This document shows positions 1-37,045 of a DNA stretch of 53,688 bases, one piece after another. The position numbers were made by a program, and so were the translations under genes. Within the stretch, counting starts at the first letter, position 1. Each line of letters starts with the position of its first letter. This DNA is from a virus. The notes under the pieces were generated by a model that saw only the letters and a list, made by a program, of their open reading frames with translations, did no database searches and had not been told where the DNA came from. The stretch is from IMG/VR virus record IMGVR_UViG_3300042541_001760, positions 1 to 53,688 of that record, one strand, 5' to 3'.

Positions 1-905
1 TACTAGGAAATGGTGTTTCAGTTGGTGTGGCAGTGTTTGTTGGGGTTTTAGTATTGGTTGGTGTTTGAGTAGTAGTAGTAGTATTAGTAGGCGTTTGAGT
101 AGTAGTAGGAGTTACCGTTGGTGTTGGGGTTTGGGTTGTAGTAGTGGTAGGTGTTTCTGTTCTAGTAGGGGTGTTAGTTGGCGTTTCATTTTGTGTTGGG
201 GTATTAGTTGGTGTTTCAGTTTGTGTTGGTGTTGGTGTCTGAGTGTTAGTCCGAGTATTAGTCGGAGTTGGAGTGTTTGTGGTTGTTTCGGTTGGGGTAA
301 TGGTATTAGTCGGTGTATTTGTAGGTGTTTGCGTAGGTGTTTGTGTTGGGGTTTTAGTCGGTGATTTTGTCACCGGTGGTGTCATGGTTGGTGTAGGTGT
401 CGGTGTATTTGATGGAGTTACGTCAGGTGTTTGTGTTGGGGTTTGTGTCTGAGTACTTGTTGGTGTATTTGTTGGGGTATTTGTTGGGGTTGGAGATTCC
501 GGCGTTGTTGGGGTTGGTGTTGGGGTTGTAGTTTTTGTTGGTGTATTTGTTGGTGTATTTGTTGGTGTAACAGTATTTGTTGTCGTGTTTGTTGGCGTGT
601 TTGTTGGTGTGTTTGTTGGTGTATCGGTATTTGTTGGTGTATTTGTTGTTGTGTTTGTTGGTGTTCTTGTTGGGTTCGGACTCGATAAAGGGGTTTTTGT
701 GTTTGTTGGTGTAACAGTATTTGTTGGTGTTTGAGTCGCGGTTTGAGTCGCGGTGGTGGTTATTGTTGGCGTATTTGTTGGTGTAACAGTATTTGTTGGT
801 GTTTGAGTCTCGGTTTGAGTTGGGGTAATGGTTATTGTTGGCGTAACAGTATTGGTAGGGGTTTTAGTTGGGGTAACGGTAGGTGTTGGTGTTGTCGTGG
901 GTGTT
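1..905 (-). repeat. Mucin-like PTxT tract of the giant adhesin
   Basis: The plus strand is GT-rich degenerate repeats (GTTGGTGTTTG-like). Read on the minus strand they give almost uninterrupted P-T-N-T, P-T-Q-T and P-T-P-T units, about 300 residues before the window edge. The period is codon-phased (6, 12 or 18 nt), so this is protein-level repetition. One interruption near 360-385 reads [10 protein letters not shown], comparable to the KTPxxT motifs in the two neighbouring proteins. Confidence 0.9.
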
Positions 906-3900
906 GGGCATACCACATCACCATTTAGAACTAAATTACACTCATCACAATCGTCAAATAACCTATACGAACTAAATGGTAATGAGGTATTAGGTATACC
1001 TCTTGAAATTACGGTACAAGCACTAAATCCATCTTCGGTTGTTAGTAAAAACGTATTTTGGGTACTACTAATTAATATACCTAATAGATCCGGCTGATTA
1101 GTTAAGTCAATACGGTAAGTACCACAACAAGAACTTAAAACAATTGGTAAAGTAGTTGTGCTCGGAGTTGGGGTATGTGTAGGTGTTGGGCTAGGTGTTG
1201 GACAAGCTCCTCCGGGTAAGTAATTAGCAATACAAGTATCACAATCACCAGTGAAATTAAAAACATAATCAGCAGTTTCAAAAACAAGATTAACATAACC
1301 GTATGTTAATTTCGTACAACCCGAATACCCATCAGTTTCAATATAATAAATTTCATTTAGAGTTAATCCAGAAGCGATTGCTGGATTTGTAAATTTAATA
1401 TTGGTATTACCACAACAAGAAGAGAATACTAATTCTACTTTTGTTGGGGTAGGTGTTGGGGTTGATGTTTGAGTTGGGGTTCTAGATGGATTATTAGTTC
1501 TAGTAGGTGTAGGGGTTGACCTATTACTCGGCGTTGATGTTTTAGTTGCGGTTATTGTAGGGGTAACCGTAGGTGTTGGGGTTGGGGTAGGCGTTAACCC
1601 TAAACAATCATTACAACTATTGTAAGGCCCAATAAATGAAGTTATTTGATTAGGACAACAAGAACAAGACCCACTCATAGTAACAACAAAACAATCCGTC
1701 TCAACATAAGAAGAATTATTTAATTCGGTAATACTATTTTGGGTGCAATTATTATATGAAGTAAAATAACCCCCAACTATTAAATTTAGACCGTCGTTTG
1801 TTAATGATACTTTATAAGCCGAACCACCACCAAAACCATTTCCTGTGACAAATGAAGTTACAACAGATCCGGTGGAATCCAATTTAACAATACCATTATA
1901 AGTTACCCCTTGATATGTGGTGAAATTACCAACGATTATATAATTACCATCAGAATCAACCTCAATATCTCTTATTGTTCCTCCACTAAATCCAACTCCC
2001 GTATTGAAACTATTGTCTACTGTTCCGTTTGAATTTAACTTTATTAATCCATTATGATTAATTCCGTTATATTGAGTAAAGTCACCACCAACTAAAATGG
2101 TATCATCCCCTAATACTTTAACCGCATAGACCGAATTATTAAACCCTACCCCACAATTAAATGCCGGTTCGATATTACCACCATTTGTTAACGCCACTAT
2201 CTTATTAGATGATATTCCATCAAACTCAGTAAAAGACCCGACCGCAATTATTGTTCCATCAGATAATAAATCTATGTCATAAACATATTCATCATTAATA
2301 TTTGGTAAAAAACCTCCATTACCAAAACCAGGATCAACACTACCATTATAATCTAATCTTATTAGTTTATGATAATATATTCCTCCGGGGTTACTAAATG
2401 TACCCCCAACCAATATTTGATTATTAGGTTGTATTTTTATTTTAGATATTGCACCTCCATTGGGGAAGTTTATTGTAGTGAATCCTGGGTCTATTAATCC
2501 TGTCGAATCTACTCTTTGTATTAGGTTACCGGCAATGTTTACTTGTTGAGCTAAACCAACCAATACGTATGTGTCTGGTTGTTGAACAACTTCATTAACA
2601 TATACATAACTTGGACCTCCGTAATTAAATGTTGTATCTAAAGTACCATTAGGATTTAATCTTATGACCTCATCTGACAAACTAATACCACTATATTGTG
2701 AGAAATTACCCGCCAATAATACCTTATCATCAATTTGTACATCAACACCAATTACAAAATTATTAAATCCTGAACCAATTCTAAAATCTCCCGTATTAAT
2801 TGTTCCGGGTAAAATATTAATATTGACATCATATATTGAATTTAAAACCATTGTACTTGTGGTACATCCACTATAAACTCTTCCATCGGTACACGCACTT
2901 AATTCATAACAATATCTTTGAATGAATGTTGGGGTAACCGTTGGTGTTTGTGTTGGGGTTGCCGTATTTGTTGAGGTTACCGTAGGTGTTGCCGTATTTG
3001 TTGCGGTTACCGTAGGTGTTACCGTCGGTGTTGAGGTTGTTGTTGGTGTTGGAGTAGGACATATAATCCCTATTGTGTCCAATCTACATGTATCACAATC
3101 TAAATATTCGGATATTGAAACGAAATCGTATAATATGTCAGGGGCATGATTAACAACCGTAGTACATCCAGTATAGCCATCTGTAATTAAATAATATGTT
3201 ATTAATGGGTTTAAGGAATAAATTAATTCTGACTCTTCAGTTAAACCAATATAAATTTCATCACAACAATCTTTAAAGGCTTTTTGTGGTCTAGTTGGTG
3301 TTGGGCTAGGTGTTTGAGTTGGTGTTGGTGTAGGACAATTATTATTACCGGTACTATCTGTTAAACAATTAATACAATTAGTATAAGGATTACTAATAGA
3401 AATAAATTCGTAAAAGTTATCAGGTCTTACGGGAACAATAGTCACACAACCAACAAATTGAGATGTCTCAATATAATATGTTTTTGTTGGATCAAGTGTT
3501 GATATAAACTGAGTTTCCTCCATCAAGGAGAATAAATCAGTTGTACAACAAGAACTAAATCCTAATTGTGGTGACGGGCTTGTTGGGGTAACTGTTGGTG
3601 TTAGTGTTGGGGTAACTGTTGGTGTTAGTGTTGGTGTGACTGTTTTGGTTGCAGTTCGACTTGGCGTGACTGTTTTAGTTGTAGTTGGAGTTGGTGTTGG
3701 TGTTGAAGTCGCGCTTGTTGGAGAGGGGGTTTGGGTTGCGGTTTTTGTGGGTATTGGTAATGGAACCCACGGACCGGTGTTTGGTTGAGGTTCTACGTAC
3801 CCAAATGTTTTAGTTGGGGTTGGGGTTGGTGTCTTAGTTGGGGTTGTGGCAGGAGTTGCGGTGTTAGTCGGAGTTTGGGTTGGTGTAGGTGTTGGGCTAG

Positions 3901-4498
3901 GTGTTGGGCAAGCTCCTCCGGGTAAGTAAGTAGTAATACAAGTATTACAATCACCAATTACATTAAAAACATTATCAGCGGTTTCTAAAACAAGATTAGC
4001 ATAACCGTATGTTAGTTTTGTACAAGCTGAATACCCATCAGTTTCAATATAATAAATTTCATTTAGAGTTAACCCAGAGGCAATTGCCGGATCTATGAAT
4101 TTAATATTGGTATTACCACAACAAGAAGAGAATACTAATTCTACTTTTGTTGGGGTGGGAGTATGGGTTGACGTTTGAGTTGGGGTTGACGTTTGAGTTG
4201 GGGTAGGCGGGGTAGGCGGGGTAGGCGGGGTAGGCGGGTCAATTACGACCTCACCTTTATCGTTCAAGATTAGATAAGTTATACAATCACCATCTAAAAA
4301 CCCATCAGGGGTATTAATACCAATTACTCCATTAACGTAAGTTTCTGTAGACCCATCCGAATAAGTAATAGTTCCAGATGTGTTATCAATATTCGGAGTT
4401 ACAATTACGGTAACACAATTTGCCCCATTACAATCACATATAGTAATAGTATATGGACCACAACTATATATTAGACCATTAAATATTAATTCACACAT
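1..4498 (-). CDS. Giant modular Thr/Pro-rich virion adhesin with seven-repeat delta-60 propeller (C-terminus cut by window edge)
   Basis: The minus frame stays open from ATG at 4498 to base 1, so at least 1499 residues are present and the C-terminus is missing. In order: an N-terminal domain (about 1-80), a PPT linker, then Cys-rich modules of ~75 residues (each starting near S-S-C-C, with Y-x-E-T-D-G-Y-x-x-C-T and a closing D-C-x-x-C) separated by PTPT linkers. Residues ~560-915 form seven delta-60/DUF5122-type repeats (cores such as ILVGGDFT). Two more CC modules follow, then ~300 residues of PTNT-type sequence running off the edge. Delta-60 repeats are predicted beta-propellers, usually on exported bacterial proteins. 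I infer a tail fibre or capsid decoration adhesin. No catalytic motif is visible. TATTTAT lies 4 nt before the start. Confidence 0.85.
1207..1445 (-). repeat. CC module, second near-identical copy
   Basis: This ~80-residue module begins V-E-L-V-F-S-S-C-C and ends near C-D-T-C followed by Y-L-P-G-G-A-C. It is nearly identical to the module at 3907-4146, differing at only a handful of residues. Other modules in the same protein share only the Cys pattern. The match suggests recent duplication or gene conversion across ~2.7 kb that includes the propeller. Confidence 0.85.
1745..2810 (-). other. Seven-repeat delta-60 (DUF5122-type) beta-propeller domain
   Basis: Seven consecutive ~45-55 residue repeats can be read. 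Each has a D-V-x-I-x-x-D-D-x-like strand, then V-L-L-A-G-N-F or I-L-V-G-G-D-F, then an x-x-x-G-I-x-x-N-x-I-x-x-L segment, a D/N-x-N-G-T turn and a D-x-x-F-N end. Seven copies would close a seven-bladed propeller. Flanking sequences look like the two halves of a CC module, so the propeller appears inserted into one. Confidence 0.8.
3907..4146 (-). repeat. CC module, first copy
   Basis: This is the first complete Cys-rich module after the N-terminal domain. It shares S-S-C-C-G-N-T-N, the Y-I-E-T-D-G-Y core and the C-x-T-C end with the copy at 1207-1445. More diverged modules lie near 3345-3575 and 3050-3290 and at 905-1160. The paired cysteines suggest disulfide or metal stabilisation, which is inferred only. 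Confidence 0.85.
4200..4238 (+). repeat. Four tandem 9-bp GGGGTAGGC repeats, potential G-quadruplex
   Basis: Four perfect copies of GGGGTAGGC are followed by GGG, giving five G-runs of 3-4 separated by 5-nt loops on the plus strand. This is striking in such an AT-rich genome. The unit is three codons and encodes the P-P-T linker of the adhesin on the minus strand, so the G-rich strand is the transcription template. Confidence 0.85.
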
Positions 4499-4834: not shown

Positions 4835-6118
4835 TTAGTTAAATATTTGGTTTTTGGTTTTAGTTGGTGTTCTTGTTGGTGTTAGTGTTGGTGTTCTTGT
4901 TACAGGTGGGGTTTTACGAGGCGTTCTAGTTTGTGTTGGTGAATTTGTCGGAGTTGGTGTTGGGCATGAACATACATTATTAATATATGCGGTGGCACCA
5001 CATGCACTTGAGATAATACTAACGTTTAAAGCACAGACACTATCCGTCATAAATTTCTTTAGTGTACGTGTGGTTGTAATCCCAAAACAATCTGTTACAG
5101 AAAAATATGAGAAATCACAAAGCATACCCCCATAAAGATTCCAATTTGAGCAACATTTTGCTGGTGTTGGGGTTGGTGTTCTTGTTGGGGTTGGTGTTCT
5201 TGTTACAGGTGGGGTTTTACGAGGTGTTCTAGTTGGTGTAGGAGTAGGTAATGTAGTTTTTGTTGGGGTTGGTGAACTAGACTTACTGATACTAGGAGTT
5301 ACTGTAATAGTCGGTGTTACTGTTACAGGTGGGGTTTTACGAGGTGTTCTAGTTTGTGTTCTAGTTGGTGTTACTGTTCTAGTTGGTGTTACCGTTTTAG
5401 TTGGAGTTACTGTTGATGTTCTAGTTGGTGTTACCGTTTTAGTCGGAGTTACTGTTGATGTTCTAGTTGGTGTTACTGTTCTAGTTGGTGTTACTGTTCT
5501 AGTTGGTGTTGGGGTTGAACTAACGCAAGGTATTTGAACTAATGATGTTGAGAATCCGGAATCATCCGTTATACAACTAACCGCTCCACTGAAATTAATC
5601 CATTGAGATTCATCACCAATAGGTAATGTCGTATCTAAAGGTAATGTAGACCCTGTTAGACCTAAATTGATATAATATACCACCCACTCAATCCCATTCC
5701 AATAAATAGAATAATTTTTTGAATTAGGGTATACGAAAGTGAATGATCTTTTTCCGTTTATAATTGAGCCTTCAGTTGGTGACACAACCCCACATTCAGA
5801 TGAAACCGAAAAATATTCGCAAAAGTAACCACTAGTTGAGGTTAGTGTTGGTGTATTGGTTATGGTCGGAGTTACTGATGGGGTTGGTGTTGCACCTGTT
5901 ATACAACTTTCGCACTGACCACTCATGTACTCAGGAGTAATAAAATTAGTAACACCACTTGATGTTCCTGTAAAAGATTCTAAATAATAACATGTTGTAC
6001 CACTACCATTATTATAGGACACTATGTCTCCAATTGAAAAAGCAGATAAAATTATATTAAAATTTATATCGTTAGTTGATGTTAGACAGTCGGTAAATAA
6101 TGAAGCGGTGTAAGACAT
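4835..6118 (-). CDS. Thr/Pro-rich modular virion protein with KTPPVT motifs
   Basis: The protein has 427 residues: an N-terminal Cys-containing module (about 1-80, ending C-E-S-C), a short PTPS linker, a second folded region (about 95-200) containing Y-W-N-G-I-E-W-V-V-Y-Y, a Thr/Arg/Pro tract (about 200-320), a CC module (starting C-C-S-N-W) and a terminal PT tail. The tract repeats T-R-T-P-R-K-T-P-P-V-T three times. Unlike its neighbours it is rich in Arg and Lys, giving a basic mucin-like stalk. It shares module types and linkers with both flanking giant genes and is probably part of the same fibre or decoration apparatus. A TATTTAT element lies 19 nt upstream. Confidence 0.8.
   Translation of the reverse strand: MSYTASLFTDCLTSTNDINFNIILSAFSIGDIVSYNNGSGTTCYYLESFTGTSSGVTNFITPEYMSGQCESCITGATPTPSVTPTITNTPTLTSTSGYFCEYFSVSSECGVVSPTEGSIINGKRSFTFVYPNSKNYSIYWNGIEWVVYYINLGLTGSTLPLDTTLPIGDESQWINFSGAVSCITDDSGFSTSLVQIPCVSSTPTPTRTVTPTRTVTPTRTSTVTPTKTVTPTRTSTVTPTKTVTPTRTVTPTRTQTRTPRKTPPVTVTPTITVTPSISKSSSPTPTKTTLPTPTPTRTPRKTPPVTRTPTPTRTPTPTPAKCCSNWNLYGGMLCDFSYFSVTDCFGITTTRTLKKFMTDSVCALNVSIISSACGATAYINNVCSCPTPTPTNSPTQTRTPRKTPPVTRTPTLTPTRTPTKTKNQIFN
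4901..5353 (-). repeat. Three dispersed 30-bp repeats encoding RTPRKTPPVT
   Basis: Near-perfect 30-bp copies lie at 4901-4930, 5204-5233 and 5324-5353, with one T/C difference in the first copy. Each contains GGTGGGGTTTTACGAGG on the plus strand and encodes the same peptide in frame. High nucleotide identity suggests recent internal duplication or recombination. Confidence 0.85.
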
Positions 6119-6144: not shown

Positions 6145-9100
6145 TCACGGAGTACAAGAAGTGCAACCACTAAATGTGGAACCTGTCCAAGAAATTGAAA
6201 TTCTTTCTATAGGACTTTCTTGTACACCTCTATATTCCCAACATCCTGTGATACCTGATAATTTAACTACTTGATTAATAGTTAATCCTGACAAATTAGA
6301 GTTAGTGTATATACATTCTCTACTATCTCCACTAAAGAATCTATTAAAAGAATTTTGAATTGTTGTAGAACTAAAGTCTGTTACCGTAGGGTCAATATTC
6401 CAATCAAAGTTAATTAGACCAGCCCCATTCCTATCCAACACATTCAACGAAGTATATCCGGTTAATGATGTGTATGTTGAGAATGGATTAAGTGTCTGTA
6501 ATGTCACGAACGTCCAATTGTTACCCAACTCAGAGTTTATGTTTGGCCAAACCCCACCATTAAAATTATAATTAGAGAAGTAAGATGCTGACCTTGTTTG
6601 ACCTTCAATCAACGCTAACGACTCTAAAATAAATTGGAATGACTGAGCCTCCACAGTCAAGAAACCTTCAACAAGGTTACCATTTGGATTTACAAATAAT
6701 AGGTTATTTACTTTTTTACCTAAAGTGTTTGTAAAATAATTCCAAGATGTTAGGTAATTGTTATAATCCTTTTGAACTCCCGTATTGTTAATATAGAAAT
6801 TTGATGGTAAAGATGATGTATTACCATTTGTTAATGTAGACCCTGTTCGTGTATATATCGGAGAAGATTCATTAATTACACATATAGCAATAAAACTATC
6901 CGTTTCAGGGGTGAAATTACCTGCGGTTGAGAATTGTGTTAATTCCGCATGATTAAATGGAACACCTTGAGATCCGTATATATCTGAAGTTATAGTAGGG
7001 TATGATGCGAAATCCCAACCATTATTAATTATTTGTTTAACTGACGTATCGTTTGATATACCACTATATAGTAAAGAGTTATTATCAACGTAGTTACCAC
7101 CAATTGTCGCTCCCGATAAAGTTCCTGTTATAGGATAAATCGGCCAAGAAACCCATCTTTCATCCCACAATACCATCTCATAAAGAGACCCTGTATATCC
7201 ACTTGTTAATGTTAATCCACTATACCAAGTTCTAACACTTAAAGCAACATCTTGTAATAACGAATCACTATATGACCCAGAACCGTCATAGAAAACATAA
7301 ATATTTCTATCCAAATTAGGATTACAGTTACATAGTACGTCAGATAATATATTTGACCTTGGGCTTGGTGTGTTTGTTGGAGTTACCGTTTTAGTTGGGG
7401 TTATTGATGATGTAGGGGTGACAGTTTTGGTTACACTAGGGGTTAGCGTATTTGTTCTTGTTATGGTAGGAGTTACCGTATTAGTTGGAGTTTCAGTTTG
7501 TGTTGGGGTTGTTGTTTGTGTTGGAGTTTTAGTTGCAAATGGAGTTCTATTGGGAGTTTTTGTTGGAGTTGTTGTTTTCGTAGGGGTAACGGTGCTAGTT
7601 GGCGTAGTCGTATTTGTTGGAGTTTCAGTATTTGTCGGAGTTGTTGTTTTTGTGGGAGTAACTGTGATAGTTGGGGTGGGGGTATTTGTTGGGGTTGTGG
7701 TGTTTGAAGGTGGTATAGTAATAGTTGGAGTAGGTGTTTTAGTTGATGTTGGGGTGATAGTATTTGTCGGTGTTGGTGTATTTGTTGGTGTATTTGTTGG
7801 TGTTTCAGTATTTGTTGGTGTCGTTGTATTTGTTGGAGTTTGAGTTGCGGATGGAGTTTTTGTTTGGGTTATTGTGTTTGTAGGTGTTTGTGTTTGTGTG
7901 GCGGTAACTGTGTTGGACGGCGTTTGAGTATTTGTTGGTGTGGATGTCTGAGTTGGAGTTTTAGTATTTGTTGGTGTTGTTGTTTGAGTTGGAGTCTCTG
8001 TTCTGGTTGGTGTTTGTGTAATCGTATTCGTAGGTGTTGAGGTATTAGTTGAGGTAGGTGTTTTTGTATTTGTTGGAGTTACAGTATTGGTAGGTGTAAC
8101 TGTGCTAGTTGTAGTATTTGTATTAGTTATAGTGTTTGTGGGTGTTTGTGTAGATGTTGGCGTTCGAGTTGCGAATGGAGTTTTAGCGGGGGTTTTAGTG
8201 TTAGTTGGGGTCTGAGTAATTGTTTTAGTCGGAGTATTTGTTGGTGTTGATGTAATTGTATTAGTTGGGGTGGGGGTAGGTGTTTTTGTGTTAGTTGGAG
8301 TTATAGTATTAGTAGGTGTAACTGTATTAGTTGGGGTTTTAGTAGGTGTAACCGTATTAGTTGGTGTAGATGTTTTTGTGGGTGTTTTTGTATTGGTTGG
8401 GGTTAGGGTATTTGTAGTAGTAACAGTAGAAGTTATCGTATTAGTAGGGGTTGCAGTATTTGTTGGTGTTTGAGTATTAGTAGGGGTTTTAGTTGCAAAT
8501 GGAGTTTTAGCCGGAGTTTTAGTGCTAGTTATTGTTTGTGTGGGTGTTTGTGTAATAGTGTTAGTTGGTGTTTGGGTTCTAGTGTTTGTAGGTGTCTGAG
8601 TTGGTGTTTTAGTATTTGTTTGGGTTTGAGTATTAGTAGGAGTTTGAGTATTAGTAGGGGTTTGAGTATTAGTAGGGGTTTTAGTATTAGTAGGAGTTTT
8701 AGTATTAGTAGGAGTTTGAGTATTTGTTGGTGTGGATGTTATTTGAGCAGGTGTTATAGTTGGAGTAACAGTAGTTGTTTTAGTTGGAGTTATAGTATTA
8801 GTAGGAGTTATAGTATTAGTAGGAGTTTGAGTATTTGTTGGTGTGGATGTTTGAGTTTGAGTATTAGTTTGAGTTTGAGTATTAGTAGGGGTTTTAGTTG
8901 CAAATGGAGTTTTAGCCGGAGTTTTAGTGTTTGTAGGTGTTTGTGTTTGAGTTTGTGTGGTAGTGTTAGTTGGGGTTTGAGTATTTGTATTTGTAGGTGT
9001 CTGAGTTGGAGTTTTAGTATTTGTTGGTGTAGGTGTTTGAGTTGTCGTTTCTGTGTTGGTAGGTGTTTGAGTAATTGTATTTGTAGGTGTTGGCGTTTCT

Positions 9101-11322: not shown

Positions 11323-11336
11323 TATATTTTTTATTG

Positions 11337-11343
11337 ATAAATA
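11337..11343 (-). promoter_or_regulatory. TATTTAT element for the giant LamG/vWA gene
   Basis: The minus strand reads GTATTTATCAATAAAA, ending 14 nt before ATG 11322. It is the mirror image of the element at 11357-11363 serving the divergent plus-strand gene, so the 54-bp gap has one copy facing each way. Confidence 0.55.
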
Positions 11344-25711: not shown

Positions 25712-25716
25712 ACACT

Positions 25717-26836: not shown

Positions 26837-26839
26837 ACT

Positions 26840-27490: not shown

Positions 27491-28185
27491 TGTTTGTCAT
27501 ATGTTGTAAATATAATCCACAGTTCCCTAACATTATTGAATTAGTTGATGGTATTAGAAGATATCACCCCACAGAAAAAATTGTGGTCGTTGACAGTAAT
27601 TCTAGTGATAAAACATATTTTAATCTATTAAAAAAATATGATGTGATTATTGAAGATATTAGTAATGAAAATTGGATGATAGGGGCGTATTGGTATACAT
27701 ATAAAAAATACCCAAATGAGGAATTCTATTATTTTATGCATGACTCTATGAAGGTAAAATCAAACTTAACTTATTTAAAAGAAAATGATTTGACTATCCT
27801 AATGCATTTTGAAAGATTCAATGTAGCGCATTTTAATAATTGGGAATCTTTGGTTAATGAGAATACAAAATATAAATATAATAAAAATGGTTATGGTTGT
27901 TTCGGACCTATTTTTTTCTGTAAAAATAAAGTCATGAAGAATATGTTAGATGCGGGTGTTGATAAATTATTACCAAAAAATAAGTTCGAAACACAAATTT
28001 GTGAAGGTGCCTATGGTTTCTTTTTAGAAAATCAGGGTTATGATTTAACTAAATGCTCGTTATTCGGTAATGTTTTTGAGGTAGAAGGGCCTAATGGAAA
28101 ATCTGGACTACCACCACATAAAACAGATTGGCAATTTCCGGTTGAGAAATTTTACGCATCACATGTTGATGCAAAAAGATTATAA
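27490..28185 (+). CDS. Putative GT-A-like glycosyltransferase
   Basis: The 231-residue protein begins M-F-V-I-C-C-K-Y-N-P. It has I-V-V-V-D-S-N-S-S-D-K-T-Y, the nucleotide-binding strand of GT2-like folds, and Y-Y-F-M-H-D-S-M as a likely metal site. G-C-F-G-P-I-F-F and E-T-Q-I-C-E-G-A-Y-G occur later, where acceptor-site residues usually fall. I see no match to a numbered GT family. Island context supports a transferase. An unrelated hypothetical protein is possible. Confidence 0.6.
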   Translation: MFVICCKYNPQFPNIIELVDGIRRYHPTEKIVVVDSNSSDKTYFNLLKKYDVIIEDISNENWMIGAYWYTYKKYPNEEFYYFMHDSMKVKSNLTYLKENDLTILMHFERFNVAHFNNWESLVNENTKYKYNKNGYGCFGPIFFCKNKVMKNMLDAGVDKLLPKNKFETQICEGAYGFFLENQGYDLTKCSLFGNVFEVEGPNGKSGLPPHKTDWQFPVEKFYASHVDAKRL

Positions 28186-28202
28186 TTAATAAAAATAAAA
28201 TT

Positions 28203-28562
28203 ATGAATAGACCAAAAACAATTTTTTTAGATATTGACGGAACACTTATAGAGCATTCTGAAAACATTGTAGAACAATTTACTAAAACACCTAAATTATT
28301 AAAAGGAACGTTAGAAAAATTATCTGAATGGGATAGAAAAGGACACAATATAATTTTAACAACTGGAAGACGTGAAGGTGTTAGAGATATTACAATTAAA
28401 CAATTATCGGAATTAGGTATTTTCTATGACCAATTAATTATGGGGATAGGTGGTGGAATAAGAGTTGTTGTAAATGATAGGAAAAAAGATAAAGAATATG
28501 ATACCGCAATAGCAATAAACCTCAAAAGAAATGAGGGTATAGGAACAATAAATGATTTATAA
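28203..28562 (+). CDS. Small HAD-superfamily phosphatase
   Basis: The 119-residue protein has HAD motif I F-L-D-I-D-G-T-L-I, motif II T-T-G-R-R, and a later D-R-K. It is the capless, short type often annotated as a capsule-biosynthesis phosphatase. It may dephosphorylate a sugar phosphate in the nucleotide-sugar pathways next to it. It is shorter than typical HAD enzymes (~150-220), with motif IV hard to locate. Confidence 0.75.
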   Translation: MNRPKTIFLDIDGTLIEHSENIVEQFTKTPKLLKGTLEKLSEWDRKGHNIILTTGRREGVRDITIKQLSELGIFYDQLIMGIGGGIRVVVNDRKKDKEYDTAIAINLKRNEGIGTINDL

Positions 28563-28563
28563 T

Positions 28564-28917
28564 ATGAAAAAAGAAGTTACGAAAGTTGATAAACCGTGGG
28601 GTTGGGAAAAATGGATTGAAGTTAATGAAAATTATGTTGTTAAAGAATTATTCATGACTGCCGGTAATAGTTGCAGCTTACAATATCATGAGAAAAAACA
28701 TGAATCTTTTTACGTTTTAAAGGGGCAATTAAAATTTGAAATTGGACCAGATAAAGACAATCTAAGTGAAATGATATTAAATGAAGGTGAATATTATACA
28801 ATAGAACCTTTTGTTGTACATAGAATGTCAGCAATTGTTGACAGTTTGTATTTAGAAAGTTCTACTAATTTCTTAGATGACGTTATTAGATTAGAAGATA
28901 AATATGGCAGAGTATAA
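28564..28917 (+). CDS. Type II phosphomannose-isomerase-like cupin
   Basis: The 117-residue protein matches the C-terminal cupin of ManC/PMI type II: K-P-W-G-W-E-K-W, Y-H-E-K-K-H-E-S-F-Y-V-L-K-G, and P-F-V-V-H-R-M. It could interconvert fructose-6-P and mannose-6-P, feeding GDP-mannose and then GDP-fucose, or act on another hexose phosphate. ATG 28564 is chosen because it follows the upstream stop directly; an ATG at 28552 would add four residues. Confidence 0.8.
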   Translation: MKKEVTKVDKPWGWEKWIEVNENYVVKELFMTAGNSCSLQYHEKKHESFYVLKGQLKFEIGPDKDNLSEMILNEGEYYTIEPFVVHRMSAIVDSLYLESSTNFLDDVIRLEDKYGRV

Positions 28918-29695
28918 AAATATTGCCATACTATTATGTGGGCATATAAGAAATTATGATGTTTTAGATTTATGTATTAAAAAACTAAATGAAAATTTAA
29001 TATCTAAAAACGAAAAAGTAAATTTTAAAATATTTTTTTGTTCTTGGGATTATTTAGATTGGCAACATGATGGAACTATTTATTCTTCAGAAAAAATAGA
29101 TGGTGAATTATTAAAAAAATATGGGTTTGATGGTTATAAAATATTAAAACAAAACGAATACCTATCATTTAATGATAGGATTCACTCACAATATCAAGTT
29201 ATTTTTGAATGCAATAAAGTTAAAAAAGAATATGAAACTAAAAGTAACATTATTTTTGACGGTGTGATAAGAACAAGATGTGATTTAATTATAGATTCAA
29301 TAATTAATATCGAAGAAATTAATTTAAATACATATACAATAACTGAAGATGAATTTGGTTTTGCTGATTGGTTTTGTGTTTCTAATAGTACAAATATGGA
29401 CTATTATAGTTTTTTGCACAAAGAATATTATAACCTTACTAAACAAATAAATACAAATGGTTGTTTTAAAAATTTTGATGTTGACCCACATAATATTTTA
29501 TTAATTCATTTACTAAACAATAAATTTGGCTTATCAAAAGAAAAAATATTAGAATTAAAAATAACAGAGAATATCGATGAGTATATAGATAATAATTTAA
29601 CACTTATTGATTCGTATTATATTGATTATTATTTAAAAAGAGTTGATAATCGAGTAAATGCAACATTTAAAAAAATTAAAAATGGAGACATATAA
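28904..29695 (+). CDS. Putative glycosyltransferase-like protein with RTRCD motif
   Basis: The 263-residue protein begins with I-A-I-L-L-C-G-H-I-R-N-Y, followed by I-F-F-C-S-W-D-Y and G-V-I-R-T-R-C-D-L. The R-x-R-x-D and F-G-F-A-D-W-F features recur in viral and bacterial surface-polysaccharide proteins (WavE-like), where the RxD acts like a DxD. Late sequence is Asn/Ile-rich. The family assignment is tentative. It overlaps both neighbours by 14 nt each, typical of the island. Confidence 0.5.
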   Translation: MAEYKNIAILLCGHIRNYDVLDLCIKKLNENLISKNEKVNFKIFFCSWDYLDWQHDGTIYSSEKIDGELLKKYGFDGYKILKQNEYLSFNDRIHSQYQVIFECNKVKKEYETKSNIIFDGVIRTRCDLIIDSIINIEEINLNTYTITEDEFGFADWFCVSNSTNMDYYSFLHKEYYNLTKQINTNGCFKNFDVDPHNILLIHLLNNKFGLSKEKILELKITENIDEYIDNNLTLIDSYYIDYYLKRVDNRVNATFKKIKNGDI

Positions 29696-31232
29696 AGTTT
29701 TAATAACCACTAGTGGGATTGGTTCTAGATTAGGTGATTTAACAAAATATACAAATAAATGTTTAGTAAGGGTTGGTAAAAAACCGGCTATTTCATACAT
29801 TGTGGAATCCTACCCAAAAGAAATAGAAATAGTAATAACAATTGGTCATTTCGGTTCACAAATTAAAGACTTCATAACCTTAGCATATCCTGAAAGGAAT
29901 TTTACCTTTATTGAAATCGATAAATTTGAAGGTGAAGGATCCTCATTAGGTTATTCGATGATAAAAGCCAAAGAAGAATTGCAATGTCCTTTTATTTTTC
30001 ACGCTGCAGATACGATTATAACTGAAGATATAAAAGAACCAACCGAAAACTGGTTAGCTTGTCAGTACAAAGAAAACAACTCTCAATATCGAACAATTTC
30101 TTTTGTACCTAACAGAATGATAAATGAAAAAGGTGATTTAGAGTCTAATTTCGCTTATATTGGATTGGCAGGTATAAATGATTATAAAAACTTTTGGGGT
30201 GCGTTAGAAGAAGAATATAAGAATAATATCAACGATACAACATTAAGCGATTGTCATGCAATTAATAAAATGAATTGTAAATGGAATGTTGTTGAATATC
30301 ATAAGTGGTTAGATATTGGAAATGTTTCTGAATTAAAATACGCTAGAGAAACTATTTATGATAAATTTGATATACTAAATAAAGTTGACGAATCAATATT
30401 TCTATTCAACGACTTTGTAATTAAATTTTCTTACAATAAAACAGTTTGTACTAATAGAGTTCAGCGATGCAAAGAATTATATGGATTAACACCAAAACTT
30501 ATAGACTATACAGATAATTTTTATAAATACGAATATGCTAATGGCGATTTATTATCAACATCAGTTGATGAAGTAATCTTTGAAAATTTTTTAGATTGGA
30601 GTAAAAATAATCTATGGGTTAAACATGGTAAATCGGATGACTTCAAATTAATTACTAAAAAGTTTTATTTTGATAAAACATTTGAACGATTACAAAAATT
30701 ATTTAATGACAATAAAATAAATGATGAATCGATTTCCATCAACGGTATGTTTGTCCCGCCGGTTATGGATATGATAAAAGAAATAGACGAAAACTGGTTA
30801 TGTTCAGACACTTATTATCAATTTCACGGCGATTATATTTTAGACAATATAATTTACAAAGGTAAAGATGATTTTGTGTTGTTAGATTGGAGACAAGATT
30901 TTGGCGGAGATTTAAAAAATGGTGATATCTATTATGATTTAGCTAAATTAAACCACAATTTACTATTTAATCACGATATCGTTCATCAAAATTTATTTTC
31001 AGTAAAGAGAACTTCAAACACCATTAAATGTGATATTTTAAGGAGTGACAATTTGACTAACTGTAGAGAGAAGTTGCATACATGGATAGTTGATAACGGA
31101 TTAGATTTAAAAAAGGTTCAAACATTGACTGCAATCATATGGTTAAACATGTCACCATTACATGATTACAAGATGGGTGAATTTTTATATTATTTTGGAC
31201 GACTTAATCTTTACAAAATGCTATATAAATAA
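29682..31232 (+). CDS. Nucleotidyltransferase - kinase (APH/choline-kinase-like) fusion
   Basis: Starting at ATG 29682 the protein has 516 residues; an ATG at 29658 would add eight. Residues ~1-230 are a nucleotidyltransferase: V-L-I-T-T-S-G-I-G-S-R-L, K-C-L-V-R-V, G-E-G-S-S-L-G. Residues ~240-516 look like an aminoglycoside-phosphotransferase/choline-kinase fold: F-H-G-D-Y-I-L-D-N (catalytic Asp, Asn) and V-L-L-D-W-R-Q-D (DFG-like metal site). Such a fusion could phosphorylate and then nucleotidylate one substrate, as LicA and LicC do separately for phosphocholine. The substrate here is unknown. Confidence 0.75.
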   Translation: METYKVLITTSGIGSRLGDLTKYTNKCLVRVGKKPAISYIVESYPKEIEIVITIGHFGSQIKDFITLAYPERNFTFIEIDKFEGEGSSLGYSMIKAKEELQCPFIFHAADTIITEDIKEPTENWLACQYKENNSQYRTISFVPNRMINEKGDLESNFAYIGLAGINDYKNFWGALEEEYKNNINDTTLSDCHAINKMNCKWNVVEYHKWLDIGNVSELKYARETIYDKFDILNKVDESIFLFNDFVIKFSYNKTVCTNRVQRCKELYGLTPKLIDYTDNFYKYEYANGDLLSTSVDEVIFENFLDWSKNNLWVKHGKSDDFKLITKKFYFDKTFERLQKLFNDNKINDESISINGMFVPPVMDMIKEIDENWLCSDTYYQFHGDYILDNIIYKGKDDFVLLDWRQDFGGDLKNGDIYYDLAKLNHNLLFNHDIVHQNLFSVKRTSNTIKCDILRSDNLTNCREKLHTWIVDNGLDLKKVQTLTAIIWLNMSPLHDYKMGEFLYYFGRLNLYKMLYK

Positions 31233-31244
31233 TATATTTGGCGT

Positions 31245-32243
31245 ATGAAACCAAAAATATTTATAGGTCCTATGAGTAAAAATATCGTAGATGCGATAAT
31301 TAAATACTCAAACGAAAATGATATTGAAATTGGGTTAATACCGTCTAGAAGACAAGTTGAATTTGACGGTGGTTATGTTAACAATTGGACAACAAAAGAT
31401 TTTTGCGAATACGTAAGAAACCGATCTAATAAAATATTATTAGTAAGAGATCATGCTGGGCCATCACAAGGATATAGTGAGGATGACGGTATGGATTCTT
31501 TTATTGAAGATTGTAAATATTTCGATATCATACATGTTGATGTTTGGAAAAAACATAAAGAGTATCGAGAAGGGTTATTATCTACAGTAGATTTTATTCT
31601 AAAAGGATTCAGTTTAAACTCAAACTTGTTATTTGAAGTGGGTACTGAAGAATCAATCAGACCAACTAACGAAATCGAATTAAATAACCTTTTAGGAGAC
31701 TTGAGAAAGTTATTACCGTTACAGGTATACGGCCAAATTAAATACGCAGTCATTCAATCTGGAACGGCCTTAAAAGGCAACACAAACATTGGTAGTTTCA
31801 ATCAATACAGATTAATCGAAATGGTTAAAGTTGTCAAAAATCACGGGATGATATCTAAAGAACACAATGGTGATTATTTGACAAATGAATTAGTTAAATC
31901 AAAATTTGAAAACGGTTTGAGCGGTATTAATATTGCGCCAGAATTTGGTCAGATAGAAACAAAAATTATTTTAGGGATTATTAAAACTAACCATCCAGAA
32001 TTGATAGATGAATTTTATAAAATTTGCTATGATTCAAAAAGATGGGTAAAATGGGTTGACGCAGATTTTATTCCGGAAAACAACAAAGAAGAAATTATAA
32101 ACATAAGCGGACATTATGTTTTTTCTGAACCTAAGTTTATCGAACTTAAAAATAAATTAAATTATAATAATTTAGATTCTGATGTACAACAATCAATCTA
32201 TAACAGAATCGATGAATTAATTAAAACTATAAATGAAATCTAG
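31245..32243 (+). CDS. Class II aldolase / GatZ-KbaZ-like TIM-barrel protein
   Basis: The 332-residue protein includes G-L-I-P-S-R-R-Q-V-E, I-L-L-V-R-D-H-A-G-P, D-I-I-H-V-D-V-W-K-K, L-L-F-E-V-G-T-E-E and I-N-I-A-P-E-F-G. These fall at spacings expected for alternating strands of a TIM barrel and recall tagatose-bisphosphate aldolase subunit GatZ/KbaZ (G-D-H-x-G-P). It could form or cleave a C-C bond to make an unusual sugar. The assignment rests on a few motifs, so a related barrel enzyme is possible. It overlaps the next gene by 11 nt. Confidence 0.5.
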   Translation: MKPKIFIGPMSKNIVDAIIKYSNENDIEIGLIPSRRQVEFDGGYVNNWTTKDFCEYVRNRSNKILLVRDHAGPSQGYSEDDGMDSFIEDCKYFDIIHVDVWKKHKEYREGLLSTVDFILKGFSLNSNLLFEVGTEESIRPTNEIELNNLLGDLRKLLPLQVYGQIKYAVIQSGTALKGNTNIGSFNQYRLIEMVKVVKNHGMISKEHNGDYLTNELVKSKFENGLSGINIAPEFGQIETKIILGIIKTNHPELIDEFYKICYDSKRWVKWVDADFIPENNKEEIINISGHYVFSEPKFIELKNKLNYNNLDSDVQQSIYNRIDELIKTINEI

Positions 32244-33024
32244 AACTGCGTTTATAATATTTGCTCATTCAACAATACACACAATTGAAGATGTTGATGA
32301 TATGATATCTAATATTTCTTATTTCCACGATAATTGTGATTTTATGATTAATCATCCTACTTTAGACCATCCTAAAATTAGAATGCGTCATATGCCTGGC
32401 AACTTAAATCACTCTAATTTAATTTTTGGTGGTTTGATTGATTTGATTAAAAATATTACCGAAGACGAAATAAACTCATTTGACCATTTTTGTTTGGTTT
32501 CAGCTAACCAATATTTTATAAACGGAATTAACTTTGAAAAAGGGATTAACTATGTTCAATTTTTTAACACTGAAGATTGGTATTCCACATATAATGGAAA
32601 AGATTCAGATATATCGATAGTAGGGTTTCCATTGCAACAACCATATGGTCGTTGGGATGGTAAAAACTTATATTTAGAATACAACGTAGACTTGCCAATG
32701 GGCGCTAATTGGGAATGTATGACTGTAACAAAAGAAGTAATATTATTGGCTAAACAACATTTAGATAAATGCTTAGAGTACTACCCAAATGATGATATGA
32801 TGTCTATATTTTTACCTTATATGGTTTTATTAAGTAAACAGACATGGGAATTCCCTTCTCATTTTGGTACTTATGACCCATCAAACAAACCTAATTATAA
32901 TCGGATAATAACAATAAATCAAATTGTTGAAAAATACAATCAAGGTTACTTTTCAATTAAAAGAGTTAATTATCTTAAAAGTTGTGAATTAAAACAATTC
33001 ATTAGACAAAATTACATGAAATGA
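32233..33024 (+). CDS. Putative GT14-like glycosyltransferase
   Basis: The 263-residue protein begins T-A-F-I-I-F-A-H-S-T-I-H, like the start of core-2/I-branching (GT14-like) enzymes, and has F-D-H-F-C-L-V-S-A-N-Q-Y-F and P-M-G-A-N-W-E-C-M. GT14 enzymes lack a DxD and have this fold order. The match is by general shape and context only. The 4-nt overlap with the following gene suggests coupled translation. Confidence 0.5.
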   Translation: MKSRTAFIIFAHSTIHTIEDVDDMISNISYFHDNCDFMINHPTLDHPKIRMRHMPGNLNHSNLIFGGLIDLIKNITEDEINSFDHFCLVSANQYFINGINFEKGINYVQFFNTEDWYSTYNGKDSDISIVGFPLQQPYGRWDGKNLYLEYNVDLPMGANWECMTVTKEVILLAKQHLDKCLEYYPNDDMMSIFLPYMVLLSKQTWEFPSHFGTYDPSNKPNYNRIITINQIVEKYNQGYFSIKRVNYLKSCELKQFIRQNYMK

Positions 33025-33983
33025 AAACAATAACAATAAATTATTTATCACATAATAGATTAGATTATTCTAATTTAATGTTTTATTTTTTATCTAAAAT
33101 AAAATTAGAAAATAAAATAAAATTAAAACTTAACGTATTAGCAACTCATGAAAATAATTGGGATAATAAATGTAAAACATTAGGTATTGATTATGAGATA
33201 CATATTATAAATACATATCATAATTATTTAGATAAAATAAGAATTGCTATTTCGAGCAACACTGAATATTCAGTTAAATTAGATGAAGACTGTTTTACTA
33301 ATAACCACGTTTGGGATTATTTAATTGAAAATGTTGTTGAATTACAAAATAATGATGTTCTTACATTATCACCAGTAATGTCAAACAATATACCATCATG
33401 CGATTATTTTATTGAAGATTTCATAAGTGATGACTTAGTTAAAAATAATGTATATAATAATTTTTTAAATAGACCGATGCCAAATGGGTTATGGAGTGTT
33501 GATTATACCCCATTAAATAAATTCACAATTGATGCAACAGAATGGGACGCTAATAAATTTTATGAAGGGTTAAACTTTTTAAACACAAACACAAAAGGAA
33601 TACACCCACTTAGAATTTCATATGAGGCTCAAATAGAAATTAATAATTATATTTTAAACAATATTGATAAATTTATTTCTAATAATGAATTTAAATTATT
33701 TGAAATAAATTCACCGTATTTTACTAATAGTTTATTTTTTATTAAAACTTCTGAATGGGTTAATATATTATCACAACCAACAATTGATGCGTATGATGAA
33801 ATAGCATTAAATAAATACAAAAGGGATAACAATAAAAAGTTTTTATTTGTTAAAAATGGATTTGGTATCCACCCTATGTTTAATACCGTATTCGGTAATA
33901 ACAACCCTTGGGGTATTGGTATTGTGAATGGTGAACAATTAGAGCAAAATTTTTATACTGACTTAAAAAATAAAATAATATGA
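33021..33983 (+). CDS. Putative GT-A glycosyltransferase
   Basis: The 320-residue protein begins M-K-T-I-T-I-N-Y-L-S-H-N-R-L. It has Y-S-V-K-L-D-E-D-C-F, a good DxD-type metal site at the expected distance (~90-100 residues), followed by a variable Asn/Ile/Phe-rich acceptor half. The high Asn/Lys/Ile content reflects the AT-rich island. The specific family is not recognised. ATGA junctions link it to genes on both sides. Confidence 0.5.
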   Translation: MKTITINYLSHNRLDYSNLMFYFLSKIKLENKIKLKLNVLATHENNWDNKCKTLGIDYEIHIINTYHNYLDKIRIAISSNTEYSVKLDEDCFTNNHVWDYLIENVVELQNNDVLTLSPVMSNNIPSCDYFIEDFISDDLVKNNVYNNFLNRPMPNGLWSVDYTPLNKFTIDATEWDANKFYEGLNFLNTNTKGIHPLRISYEAQIEINNYILNNIDKFISNNEFKLFEINSPYFTNSLFFIKTSEWVNILSQPTIDAYDEIALNKYKRDNNKKFLFVKNGFGIHPMFNTVFGNNNPWGIGIVNGEQLEQNFYTDLKNKII

Positions 33984-34618
33984 TACATTGTGTAGGAGAT
34001 AGTCACTCATCGGTGTTTAGTGGCAATGAAGAAATGCAACCCATTTGGCCGGAACGATCAAATGATATAACACCATTTTTTAAAAGTTATCGAATAGGAC
34101 CAGCAACTGCTTACCAATTAGATAATAAAAAAGAAATAATCAACCAAATAATACCGTTAGTAACGGAAGGTGATAAATTATTATTTTGTTTTGGGGAGGT
34201 AGATATAAGAGCACATTTATTAAATCAATCAATTGGTCAAAACCGACCGATTGAAGACGTTGTTATTGAATGCTTAACCCGTTATGTGGAAGTCATTAAA
34301 CATTACAAAAATTTAGGAATTTCAGTCATTGTTTGGGGACCTATTGCGTCTTGGAACGATAGTAAGCCGTATTTAGGTGGTCCTAGTTTTGGTACGAACA
34401 TTGAACGTAATGAAATTACAAGGCTTTTTAACAACCATTTATTATCACAGGTAAAAGTTTACAATATACCATTCGTCACCATATTTCATGATATGTTAAA
34501 TGGTGACGGTACAACTAATGTTGAGTTACTTGATAATTGGCAAGATTGTCATATTCATTTAAATCAAAAGGCCATGCCATTAATAATTAATAGATTTAAA
34601 AATGAAGGGTTAATATGA
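33980..34618 (+). CDS. SGNH/GDSL-like hydrolase
   Basis: The 212-residue protein starts C-V-G-D-S-H-S, block I with the nucleophile Ser. It has L-L-F-C-F-G-E-V-D-I-R-A (a block III-like segment), and near the C-terminus D-C-H-I-H-L-N, the D-x-x-H catalytic pair. SGNH hydrolases in glycan loci de-acetylate or transfer acetyl groups; others are esterases. It may remodel an acetylated sugar. The length suits a minimal SGNH domain. It has ATGA overlaps on both sides. Confidence 0.65.
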   Translation: MIHCVGDSHSSVFSGNEEMQPIWPERSNDITPFFKSYRIGPATAYQLDNKKEIINQIIPLVTEGDKLLFCFGEVDIRAHLLNQSIGQNRPIEDVVIECLTRYVEVIKHYKNLGISVIVWGPIASWNDSKPYLGGPSFGTNIERNEITRLFNNHLLSQVKVYNIPFVTIFHDMLNGDGTTNVELLDNWQDCHIHLNQKAMPLIINRFKNEGLI

Positions 34619-35055
34619 TATTAATATCCCATAGAGGTAACACTAATGGTAGGGCGGAATCATTAGAAAATAACCCATCATATGTTGATTTAGCTATTTA
34701 TAATGGGTATGATGTTGAAGTGGATGTTTGGTATCTTGAGGGGGTTTTATATTTAGGACATGATAAACCACAATATGTTACCGATATAAAATGGTTTAGT
34801 GATAGGTTGACTAAACTATGGATTCATTGTAAAAATATCGATTCAGTAAAGTACTTTAAAGAGAGTGGATATGAATTCAATTATTTTTGGCATCAGAGAG
34901 ATGACATAACTCTCACCTCTAAAAACTTTTTATGGACGTTTCCCGGTAAAAAACTAACGACCCTGTCAATTGCGGTATTACCTGAAACTGTGGACTCATG
35001 GGATATGACAGAATGTTTAGGTGTATGTTCGGATTACATTAAAAATTATATATAA
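34615..35055 (+). CDS. Glycerophosphodiester-phosphodiesterase-like protein
   Basis: The 146-residue protein has I-S-H-R-G-N near the N-terminus, E-N-N-P, D-V-E-V-D-V-W and G-H-D-K-P, matching the H-R-G, E-N and E-x-D metal/catalytic motifs of the GDPD TIM barrel. It is short for a full GDPD (~230+), so it may be a compact variant with only part of the barrel or one acting on a sugar phosphodiester. Ends Y-I-K-N-Y-I. The 114 nt after it hold only tiny frames. Confidence 0.6.
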   Translation: MILISHRGNTNGRAESLENNPSYVDLAIYNGYDVEVDVWYLEGVLYLGHDKPQYVTDIKWFSDRLTKLWIHCKNIDSVKYFKESGYEFNYFWHQRDDITLTSKNFLWTFPGKKLTTLSIAVLPETVDSWDMTECLGVCSDYIKNYI

Positions 35056-35169
35056 GTATGAAAAAACCACATCTAATAAATAAAATAATACGACAATAAG
35101 ATAACAAAATAATTATTAAATGACATATGAAGAATTAACTAAAGTAATAAAAATAGTAAATAAAAATAA

Positions 35170-36072
35170 GTGAGAAAATTATTAGTAACGGGGAGTAATG
35201 GGTTAGTTGGGTCATCAATTATTTCTGACATAAAAATAGGTAGACAATACGATTTACGAAATGTTGGAGAATCGGATAAGTTGTTTGAACTACACAATCC
35301 CACCCACGTTATTCATTGTGCGGGTAAAGTAGGTGGTGTTGGTGGAAATATGAACTATAAAGGTGAATACTTTTATGATAACATAATGATTAATACAAAT
35401 GTTATTGAGTCAGCAAGAAAAACAAATGTTAAAAATTTAGTTTGTTTTTTGTCCACATGTGTATTCCCTGATAACGTAAATTACCCCCTAACTGAGGATA
35501 TGATACATTTAGGAGAGCCCCACTTTTCAAACTATCCTTATGCTTACGCTAAAAGAATGGCGGACATACAAATAAGAGCGTATAGGGAACAATATGGTCT
35601 TAACTATACATCAGTTATACCAACTAACATTTACGGACCTAATGATAACTTTTCGTTAGAACACGGTCATGTTATGCCAATGTTAATACATAAGTTATAT
35701 TTAGCACAAAAAAACAATACCGATTTTACGGTGTGGGGATCAGGAAAACCTCTAAGGGAATTTATATTTTCTAAAGATGTTGCTAAACTATCAGAATGGG
35801 CGGTTGAGAATTATAACGAATCTGAACCTATAATATTTAGTCCTTCGCAGGAAATATCTATAATTGATTTAGTTGATTTAATAGTTAAAGAATTTAACTT
35901 TAAAGGTAAGGTTATCTTTGACAATACAAAACCTGACGGTCAATTTAGAAAGCCGTCAGACAATAGTAAACTAAAATCTTATTTACCAGATTTTAAATTT
36001 ACACCAATAGAGGAAGGGATTAAAGAAACTGTTAATTGGTTTTTTAAAAATTATGAAAATGCAAGAAAATAA
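35170..36072 (+). CDS. fcl: GDP-L-fucose synthase
   Basis: The 300-residue protein starts at GTG 35170, directly before the Rossmann motif V-T-G-S-N-G-L-V-G. It has H-C-A-G-K-V-G-G-V-G-G-N, catalytic S-T-C-V-F-P, Y-A-Y-A-K-R-M (Y-x-x-x-K), I-Y-G-P-N-D-N-F and D-G-Q-F-R-K-P-S-D. These are hallmark GDP-4-keto-6-deoxymannose 3,5-epimerase/4-reductase motifs. It makes GDP-L-fucose with NADPH, using the product of the next gene. It overlaps gmd by 20 nt. No in-frame ATG is available upstream. Confidence 0.93.
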   Translation: MRKLLVTGSNGLVGSSIISDIKIGRQYDLRNVGESDKLFELHNPTHVIHCAGKVGGVGGNMNYKGEYFYDNIMINTNVIESARKTNVKNLVCFLSTCVFPDNVNYPLTEDMIHLGEPHFSNYPYAYAKRMADIQIRAYREQYGLNYTSVIPTNIYGPNDNFSLEHGHVMPMLIHKLYLAQKNNTDFTVWGSGKPLREFIFSKDVAKLSEWAVENYNESEPIIFSPSQEISIIDLVDLIVKEFNFKGKVIFDNTKPDGQFRKPSDNSKLKSYLPDFKFTPIEEGIKETVNWFFKNYENARK

Positions 36073-37045
36073 AATAGCGTTAATCACGGGAATAAATGGT
36101 CAAGACGGATCATACTTATCTGAATTTTTATTAGAAAAAGGTTATGAAGTTCATGGAACATTAAAAAGAAATTCCGTATCTGAAAATCAAACATCAAGAT
36201 TAAATAATGTTTATGATAAACTTATATTACATTATGCGGATTTAACTGATTTAGCGTCTCTAATTAGAGTGATACAAGAAGTTAAGCCTGATGAAATTTA
36301 TAATTTAGCGGCGCAGTCTCACGTTAGAATTTCCTTTGACCAGCCAATTTATACCACAAATGTAACAGGTCTTGGAACTCTTAATTTATTGGAAGCGGTT
36401 AAACTAATAAAACCCAACACAAAAATATATCAAGCATCCTCATCTGAAATGTTTGGTAATAATATTGACGAGGATGGATACCAAAGAGAAACAACCCCAA
36501 TGAGTCCGGTATCTCCATACGGATGTGCCAAAGTTTTCAGTTATAACATATCAAGAAACTATAGAAATTCTTATGGTATGTTTGTATCAAACGGAATTTT
36601 ATTTAATCACGAATCACCAAGACGAGGAACAAACTTTGTAACAAATAAAGTTTGTAAGGAAGCGGTTAAAATTAAATTAGGATTATCTGATGAATTGAAA
36701 TTGGGTAATCTTGATGCTACAAGAGATTGGGGTCACGCCAAAGATTATGTTAAAGCGATGTGGGAGATATTACAATTGGATGAACCAGATGACTTCGTAT
36801 GTTCAACAGGGGTATCACACTCTGTTAAAGATTTGTGTGAATATGTGTTCGGTAAATTAGAATTAAATTGGGTTGATTATGTAACTCAAGATGAAAAATT
36901 TTTAAGACCCGAAGAACTACGAGACTTAAAGGGTGACTCATCAAAATTAATTAATAAAACAGGATGGTCGCACGAGTACTCCTTTGAGACCATGTTAGAT
37001 GAAATGATTGACTATTGGCTTAATTATTATAAGATTACAGTATGA
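36053..37045 (+). CDS. gmd: GDP-mannose 4,6-dehydratase
   Basis: The 330-residue protein carries Rossmann I-T-G-I-N-G-Q-D-G-S-Y-L, R-N-S-V region, Y-N-L-A-A-Q-S-H-V, catalytic S-S-S-E-M-F-G, S-P-Y-G-C-A-K (Y-x-x-x-K), N-H-E-S-P-R-R-G and G-N-L-D-A-T-R-D-W-G-H-A. It converts GDP-D-mannose to GDP-4-keto-6-deoxymannose, the first step to GDP-L-fucose, with the adjacent fcl completing it. ATG at 36059 is an alternative start. It is the last gene of the sugar island and overlaps phoH by 4 nt. Confidence 0.95.
   Translation: MKMQENKIALITGINGQDGSYLSEFLLEKGYEVHGTLKRNSVSENQTSRLNNVYDKLILHYADLTDLASLIRVIQEVKPDEIYNLAAQSHVRISFDQPIYTTNVTGLGTLNLLEAVKLIKPNTKIYQASSSEMFGNNIDEDGYQRETTPMSPVSPYGCAKVFSYNISRNYRNSYGMFVSNGILFNHESPRRGTNFVTNKVCKEAVKIKLGLSDELKLGNLDATRDWGHAKDYVKAMWEILQLDEPDDFVCSTGVSHSVKDLCEYVFGKLELNWVDYVTQDEKFLRPEELRDLKGDSSKLINKTGWSHEYSFETMLDEMIDYWLNYYKITV

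Follow-up and report, generated by a model that had tools for sequence, protein, structure and literature searches.

To our knowledge, glycosylation of phage virions has been described in only a few cases, and mucin-like O-glycosylation in bacteria is little charted. Chlorovirus PBCV-1 is a eukaryotic virus with N-linked glycans on its capsid protein, and differs in this from the phage described below. Its glycosylation machinery for the capsid is virus-encoded (as cited in PMC5852040). Mycobacteriophages (Che8 and others) encode glycosyltransferases (GTs) that modify virion proteins and produce a glycan shield (Freeman et al. 2023, via PMC11256854); in these phages the reported acceptor is the major capsid protein, and the accessible part of PMC11256854 mentions neither GT60 enzymes nor Pro/Thr-rich (PT) tracts. 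In the jumbo phage XacN1 at least two glycoproteins were detected (PMC5852040). The polypeptide alpha-N-acetylglucosamine (GlcNAc) transferase of Trypanosoma cruzi, whose activity starts the glycans of mucins at Thr residues and has been assayed on KPPTTTTTTTTKPP (PMC3769586), belongs to family GT60, as do the Skp1 hydroxyproline GlcNAc-transferases (PMC6939170). Here we analyse a window of 53,688 bases (positions 1–53688) at the left end of the 261,052-base IMG/VR record IMGVR_UViG_3300042541_001760 (named G000), which encodes three tandem genes with long PT tracts and an island of glycosylation genes. We propose that the phage glycosylates these PT stalks itself by means of a GT60 enzyme, with the island acting as a cassette that extends the glycan; we put the probability of this reading at about 0.65.

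The three PT genes are on the minus strand. PT gene 1 (2–4498; 1,499 aa, its C-terminus lying past the contig end) combines seven PT tracts with small modules that contain Cys and with a DUF5122 beta-propeller (2899–1634). PT gene 2 (4835–6118; 427 aa) has tracts at 4838–4993 and 5126–5554. PT gene 3 (6145–11346; 1,733 aa, likely start ATG at 11322) consists of an N-terminal domain of ∼630 aa, a 702-aa PT tract (7342–9447) and a C-terminal domain with a DGSGS motif resembling a metal-ion-dependent adhesion site. The tracts sum to 1,632 residues with 41.9% T, 18.1% P and 213 PTxT words (5.4% T and 3.4% P in the remaining window genes), which bears out the earlier note's figure of more than 1,300 PTNT/PTxT residues. 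In having such long Thr/Ser/Pro-rich repeat domains the products resemble mucins. The tracts are no simple DNA expansion, because their codon use is close to that of the rest of the window and the 77 PTNT copies are spelt by 32 distinct DNA sequences; the repeats therefore seem to be maintained at the level of the protein. By hydropathy, no signal peptide or membrane helix was evident in the three PT proteins.

The N-terminal domain of PT gene 3 was found in 148 viral loci, and a search among isolate phages gave no match. Its structural model is of low confidence (predicted local distance difference test score, pLDDT, 59), with weak ConA/LamG-like fold matches alone; therefore, we claim no function for it. 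Across 80 loci encoding this domain, tract length ranges from none to >1,000 residues. PTxTPTxT coding is present in 35 of 40 records examined, and PT tracts in nine of the ten records longer than 200 kb.

G000 is a T4-like jumbo myovirus, as its window encodes the major capsid protein gp23 (49603–51441, same strand as the PT genes; phrog_138, 226 bits); this phage and its relatives are giant freshwater phages. The annotated isolates closest in gp23 (40–42% identity) are one Microcystis phage and Flavobacterium phages, and the latter kinship suggests a Bacteroidetes host. One could then suppose that the tracts are modified by general host O-glycosylation, which in Bacteroidetes has the sequon D(S/T)(A/I/L/V/M/T). 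Kinship with Flavobacterium phages is in its favour, and yet the tracts hold only two such sequons and the PT proteins show no evident export signal or membrane segment; on these two counts the tracts were rejected as substrates of that system, and we regard its involvement as very improbable.

Of 41 records, 26 have a GT60 (PF11397) gene, among them every one of the other nine longer than 200 kb; the profile match in a relative is 232.7 bits against a cut-off of 21. The gene shares its strand with the structural genes and lies downstream of the PT genes, in many cases only one to a few genes away from a PT-rich gene; further transferase genes and an HtrL_YibB gene usually come after it. GT60-negative contigs stop short of the position of GT60 in their nearest relatives; the borderline case is G010 (64.4 kb held, versus GT60 at 62 kb in G009 and 67 kb in G005). 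Tail sheath, present in G003, G005, G009, G013, G022 and G026, is absent from G000, a T4-like myovirus, and we take the G000 record as incomplete. In both G003 and G026 the interval that starts at the N-terminal-domain gene and ends at the homologue of G000's right-end gene measures 54–55 kb and includes GT60 and tail sheath. Just 11 kb of this interval is kept in G000; therefore ∼43 kb is missing, and the complete genome should measure about 304 kb, as G026 does. The GT60 gene of G000 would fall within the missing ∼43 kb.

The setting of GT60 varies among relatives. At L113:5431–7177 (G026) it is immediately preceded by genes for a sulfotransferase, an APS kinase and a cytidylyltransferase-like protein, and the same setting recurs in L011, L016, L019, L075, L228, L274–L278 and L283, which suggests sulfated glycans in these relatives. 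At L024:15478–16578 GT60 is directly followed by a gene for UDP-galactopyranose mutase, which would supply galactofuranose and recalls the galactofuranose of T. cruzi mucins. Both settings would fit varied glycans. A putative fibre of 1,673 aa with repeated IGGG/NTASG units adjoins the GT60 operon at L016:12248–17269.

An open reading frame (ORF) rich in Pro/Thr or Thr/Pro/Ser (PT/TPS-rich) lies within 10 kb of GT60 in 37 of 43 non-redundant viral loci; in 21 of them it adjoins GT60, compared with the 8.9 to be expected if gene order were random (0 of 100,000 simulations). Around gp23, used as a control, such an ORF occurs in 5/43 loci, with adjacency at chance; the control loci are shorter, the rate of rich ORFs still being 68/638 for GT60 versus 5/422 for gp23. 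Bacterial GT60 homologues adjoin a PT-rich gene in eight of 56 non-redundant loci (2.8 expected, p ∼0.002), and HtrL_YibB accompanies GT60 in 74/80 viral and 19/80 bacterial loci. Four PT-rich neighbours of bacterial GT60 have twin-arginine N-termini, as would fit modification in the cytoplasm ahead of export. In Sphingomonas loci L157 and L162 the gene before GT60 encodes a PT-tract protein with an Rv2525c glycoside-hydrolase-like domain. In L162 GT60 is part of a contractile-injection-system operon, together with genes for gp25, a baseplate hub and the tape measure of such a system.

Among isolates, GT60 was found in XacN1, CM1 and RAS14. In XacN1 and RAS14, which are unrelated jumbo phages, PT tracts are part of giant baseplate-adjacent proteins (ORF325 and WAX21643, respectively). 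XacN1 has GT60, HtrL_YibB, glycoproteins (PMC5852040) and this tract; it differs in its host group, in the shortness of the tract and in having no fucose genes annotated near it. A carbamoyltransferase gene adjoins GT60 in XacN1 (ORF333; L123:13409–15706), possibly for a carbamoylated glycan.

In 34 phage and bacterial GT60 sequences D92-S93-H94 is invariant and HGEE nearly so, a putative active site. Since the phage GT60 had no match among PDB sequences, a fold search was made. The best PDB matches found by Foldseek for its model (pLDDT 94) were mucin-initiating polypeptide N-acetylgalactosamine (GalNAc) transferases (E 8e-11), which supports the fold class of GT60, not the acceptor. These animal enzymes (GT27) act on Thr/Pro-rich tandem repeats like those proposed as GT60 acceptors here; GT60 is of another sequence family and likely transfers GlcNAc instead of GalNAc. 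T. cruzi mucin initiation involves the same enzyme family (PF11397/GT60) and Thr/Pro acceptors, whereas the phage and bacterial enzymes would operate without a Golgi and the predicted acceptor is a virion-type protein.

The presence of Skp1 enzymes in GT60 (PMC6939170) raises another option, a sugar on hydroxyproline, not Thr, with a phage prolyl hydroxylase preparing the acceptor. The 2OG-Fe(II) oxygenase family PF13640 occurs in only 2 of the 41 records and not in G000 (other oxygenase families were not searched). Because this family is so rare in these phages, Thr is the likelier acceptor; prolyl hydroxylase, which a Skp1-type pathway needs, was rejected as a general partner, and the hydroxyproline route seems to us a highly improbable one.

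For the virion location, the acceptor, the identity of the sugar and the benefit we infer the following scheme. The PT proteins would be made in the cytoplasm and become virion-associated adhesins or fibre-like proteins, with the Thr/Pro tracts as extended stalks. In the infected cell a GT60-family transferase would attach the first sugar, probably alpha-GlcNAc, to Thr; HtrL_YibB-type transferases, conserved GTs (14129–18340 and 38706–40578) and the enzymes of the dUTPase-PhoH cassette would then extend the glycan, with fucose and methylated sugars among the outer sugars in G000. Tail-associated stalks would in this way acquire a dense glycan coat that differs between strains and serves stiffness, protease resistance, shielding or adhesion. 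Judged from gene content, phages that have PT stalks and GT60 probably make their own ‘mucins’. The earlier note's central idea, that the phage glycosylates its own fibres, thus gains from the ties of GT60 to PT genes in relatives, unrelated jumbo phages and bacteria; the fucosylation that it stressed turned out to be a weak link (see below).

Several points weigh against self-glycosylation through GT60. PT tracts also act as plain unmodified linkers. GT60 was not matched in the 261 kb of G000, where its presence is predicted from synteny, and the viral GT60 loci are not fully independent of each other. The bacterial adjacency signal is modest. The Foldseek matches of GT60 have a template modelling score of ∼0.5 and 11–12% identity, and could fit other GT-A enzymes. 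PT-negative G013 keeps GT60, together with an SGTSG-repeat protein; thus PT is not the sole GT60 substrate. Finally, the accessible part of PMC5852040 does not attribute the glycoproteins of XacN1 to the PT-bearing ORF. In G013 the long SGTSGSSG repeat protein is encoded shortly downstream of GT60 (L027:19717–20985) and is a possible alternative acceptor.

A broader proposition, to which we would give slightly less than even odds, is a general prokaryotic and viral pathway of mucin type: GT60, often with HtrL_YibB, would modify Thr/Pro tracts in the cytoplasm, the acceptors being phage tail proteins, contractile injection systems and twin-arginine-exported cell proteins, while phages would swap the outer-glycan cassette as bacteria vary O-antigen. 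If true, GT60 and the PT tract would form a dedicated pair of enzyme and substrate that recurs from large freshwater phages to unrelated jumbo phages and contractile injection systems. Such a pair would help to account for the frequency of glycosyltransferase islands in large environmental phages, would give bacterial mucin-type glycosylation a simple test system and would suggest glycan ‘serotype’ variation in phages.

The glyco-cassette of the window (18342–37045; all features given here are on the plus strand) is the longest among 20 compared and is bounded by anchors, dUTPase on the left (16086–16709) and PhoH on the right (37042–37785). The first gene after dUTPase encodes a two-domain glycosyltransferase (Glyco_tranf_2_5 and GT4; 16706–18340) found in 63/80 relatives. 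The cassette proper opens with a GT25-family gene (18342–18962) and a GT11-family, alpha-1,2-fucosyltransferase-like gene (18959–19774), the latter assigned by Pfam (69 bits) and by an HIRRGDY motif of the HxRRGDY type. The next ORF (19812–20603) is a marginal GT11-like match (25 bits, cut-off 24), so that of two GT11-like genes named in the earlier note one is firm; its GT10-like fucosyltransferase is confirmed by Pfam (22787–23596). Further along are an NAD-dependent sugar epimerase/dehydratase family gene (20656–21672), a fusion of HAD phosphatase and nucleotidyltransferase (24338–25711), an FkbM-type methyltransferase (25717–26523), a methyltransferase below the Pfam cut-off (26840–27490) and a cupin resembling the C-terminal part of mannose-6-phosphate isomerase (28552–28917). 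Two genes at the right end had been called fcl and gmd. The first (35170–36072; Pfam Epimerase) has GDP-L-fucose synthase as its best NCBIfam family, at 233 bits against a cut-off of 500; the second (36053–37045; Pfam GDP_Man_Dehyd, 396 bits) has gmd (GDP-mannose 4,6-dehydratase), at 400.8 bits against 415. Because both genes pass Pfam cut-offs and fall under the curated NCBIfam ones, we name the genes fcl-like and gmd-like.

Outside the anchors, a divergent block of five small genes (11377–14003) is kept in ∼70 of 80 relatives, and a conserved protein, glycosyltransferase-like by eye (14129–15355; unmatched in both Pfam and NCBIfam), in 69 of 80. To the right of PhoH are a conserved protein that is possibly a glycosyltransferase (38706–39770; weak GT1 match for the G022 homologue only) and a conserved GT2 glycosyltransferase (39772–40578). 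At least eight further glycosyltransferases and sugar methyltransferases had been counted in positions 1–37045; tallied by Pfam matches at E ≤ 0.001, the Glyco_tranf_2_5-GT4 protein, GT25, GT2 and FkbM can be named, along with the sub-cut-off methyltransferase, so that the count is confirmed only in part; the GT2 gene lies beyond that range. Many island ORFs have no Pfam match at all.

Both anchors are present in all 19 relatives examined, with content swapped between them. The dUTPase-PhoH interval is 7–14.5 kb in most relatives (20.3 kb in the window) and holds 7–17 ORFs, of which merely 0–4 have a homologue in the window island. In G022 the site has genes for an aminotransferase, a pyruvyltransferase and a UDP-sugar dehydrogenase; in G013, GT15, a hexapeptide transferase and FkbM; neither has fucose genes there. 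PT-bearing G020 has no genes at the site, where dUTPase and PhoH are immediate neighbours. The island is a swappable glycan cassette at a fixed locus, like O-antigen and capsule loci with their conserved flanks and exchangeable glycosyltransferases, and differs from these in being viral and without a recognised flippase or polymerase. Fucose is one outcome among several: a strong gmd match (E < 1e-100) occurs in 6/10 records longer than 200 kb, and G022, the PT-richest relative (92 pattern matches), has no gmd, GT10 or GT11. Fucose genes, optional as they are and missing from several PT-rich relatives, were rejected as the defining partner of PT tracts. In G013 the PhoH gene has a LAGLIDADG homing-endonuclease insertion, probably an intein (L086:13663–15483).

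Modification of host O-antigen by phage glycosyltransferases is well known, and PT linkers are common without proven glycans. The tracts could accordingly be unmodified extended linkers, with the island altering host lipopolysaccharide or capsule for superinfection exclusion or receptor masking, as the earlier note had allowed. That cassette and PT tracts are separable (G020 has tracts and an empty site, G013 a cassette and no tracts) agrees with this alternative. Yet no polysaccharide flippase, polymerase or lipid-linked initiating transferase family was recognised among the window island proteins scanned, and GT60, linked to PT-rich genes in phages as well as in bacteria, sits amid structural genes on their strand; we judge host-surface alteration rather unlikely.

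The position of the cassette, on the opposite strand beside replication-type genes (dUTPase, exonuclease, PhoH), and the separate transferase set downstream of GT60 would also suit distinct targets: cassette sugars on another virion protein or on DNA, and PT stalks that carry either the GT60 modification only or none. In the close relative G003, though, the GT60 operon holds homologues of window cassette genes, namely the HAD-nucleotidyltransferase (59% identity) and a 146-aa protein (57%); therefore, cassette and GT60 loci exchange genes. We consider distinct targets quite unlikely.

The TylF family had no match in the genome. The T4 late-promoter motif TATAAATA had 17 matches versus 15.5 expected and therefore gives no evidence on expression timing. 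The gene adjoining gp23 (51462–52943, minus strand; no PHROGs match) encodes an acidic MDMDMDSDEDE repeat (52555–52943) and is possibly scaffold-like. Near the right end of the record (L001:15713–17094) there are four tandem paralogues of ∼100–111 aa (‘MDIQVNKNQLERVVIKWL...’).

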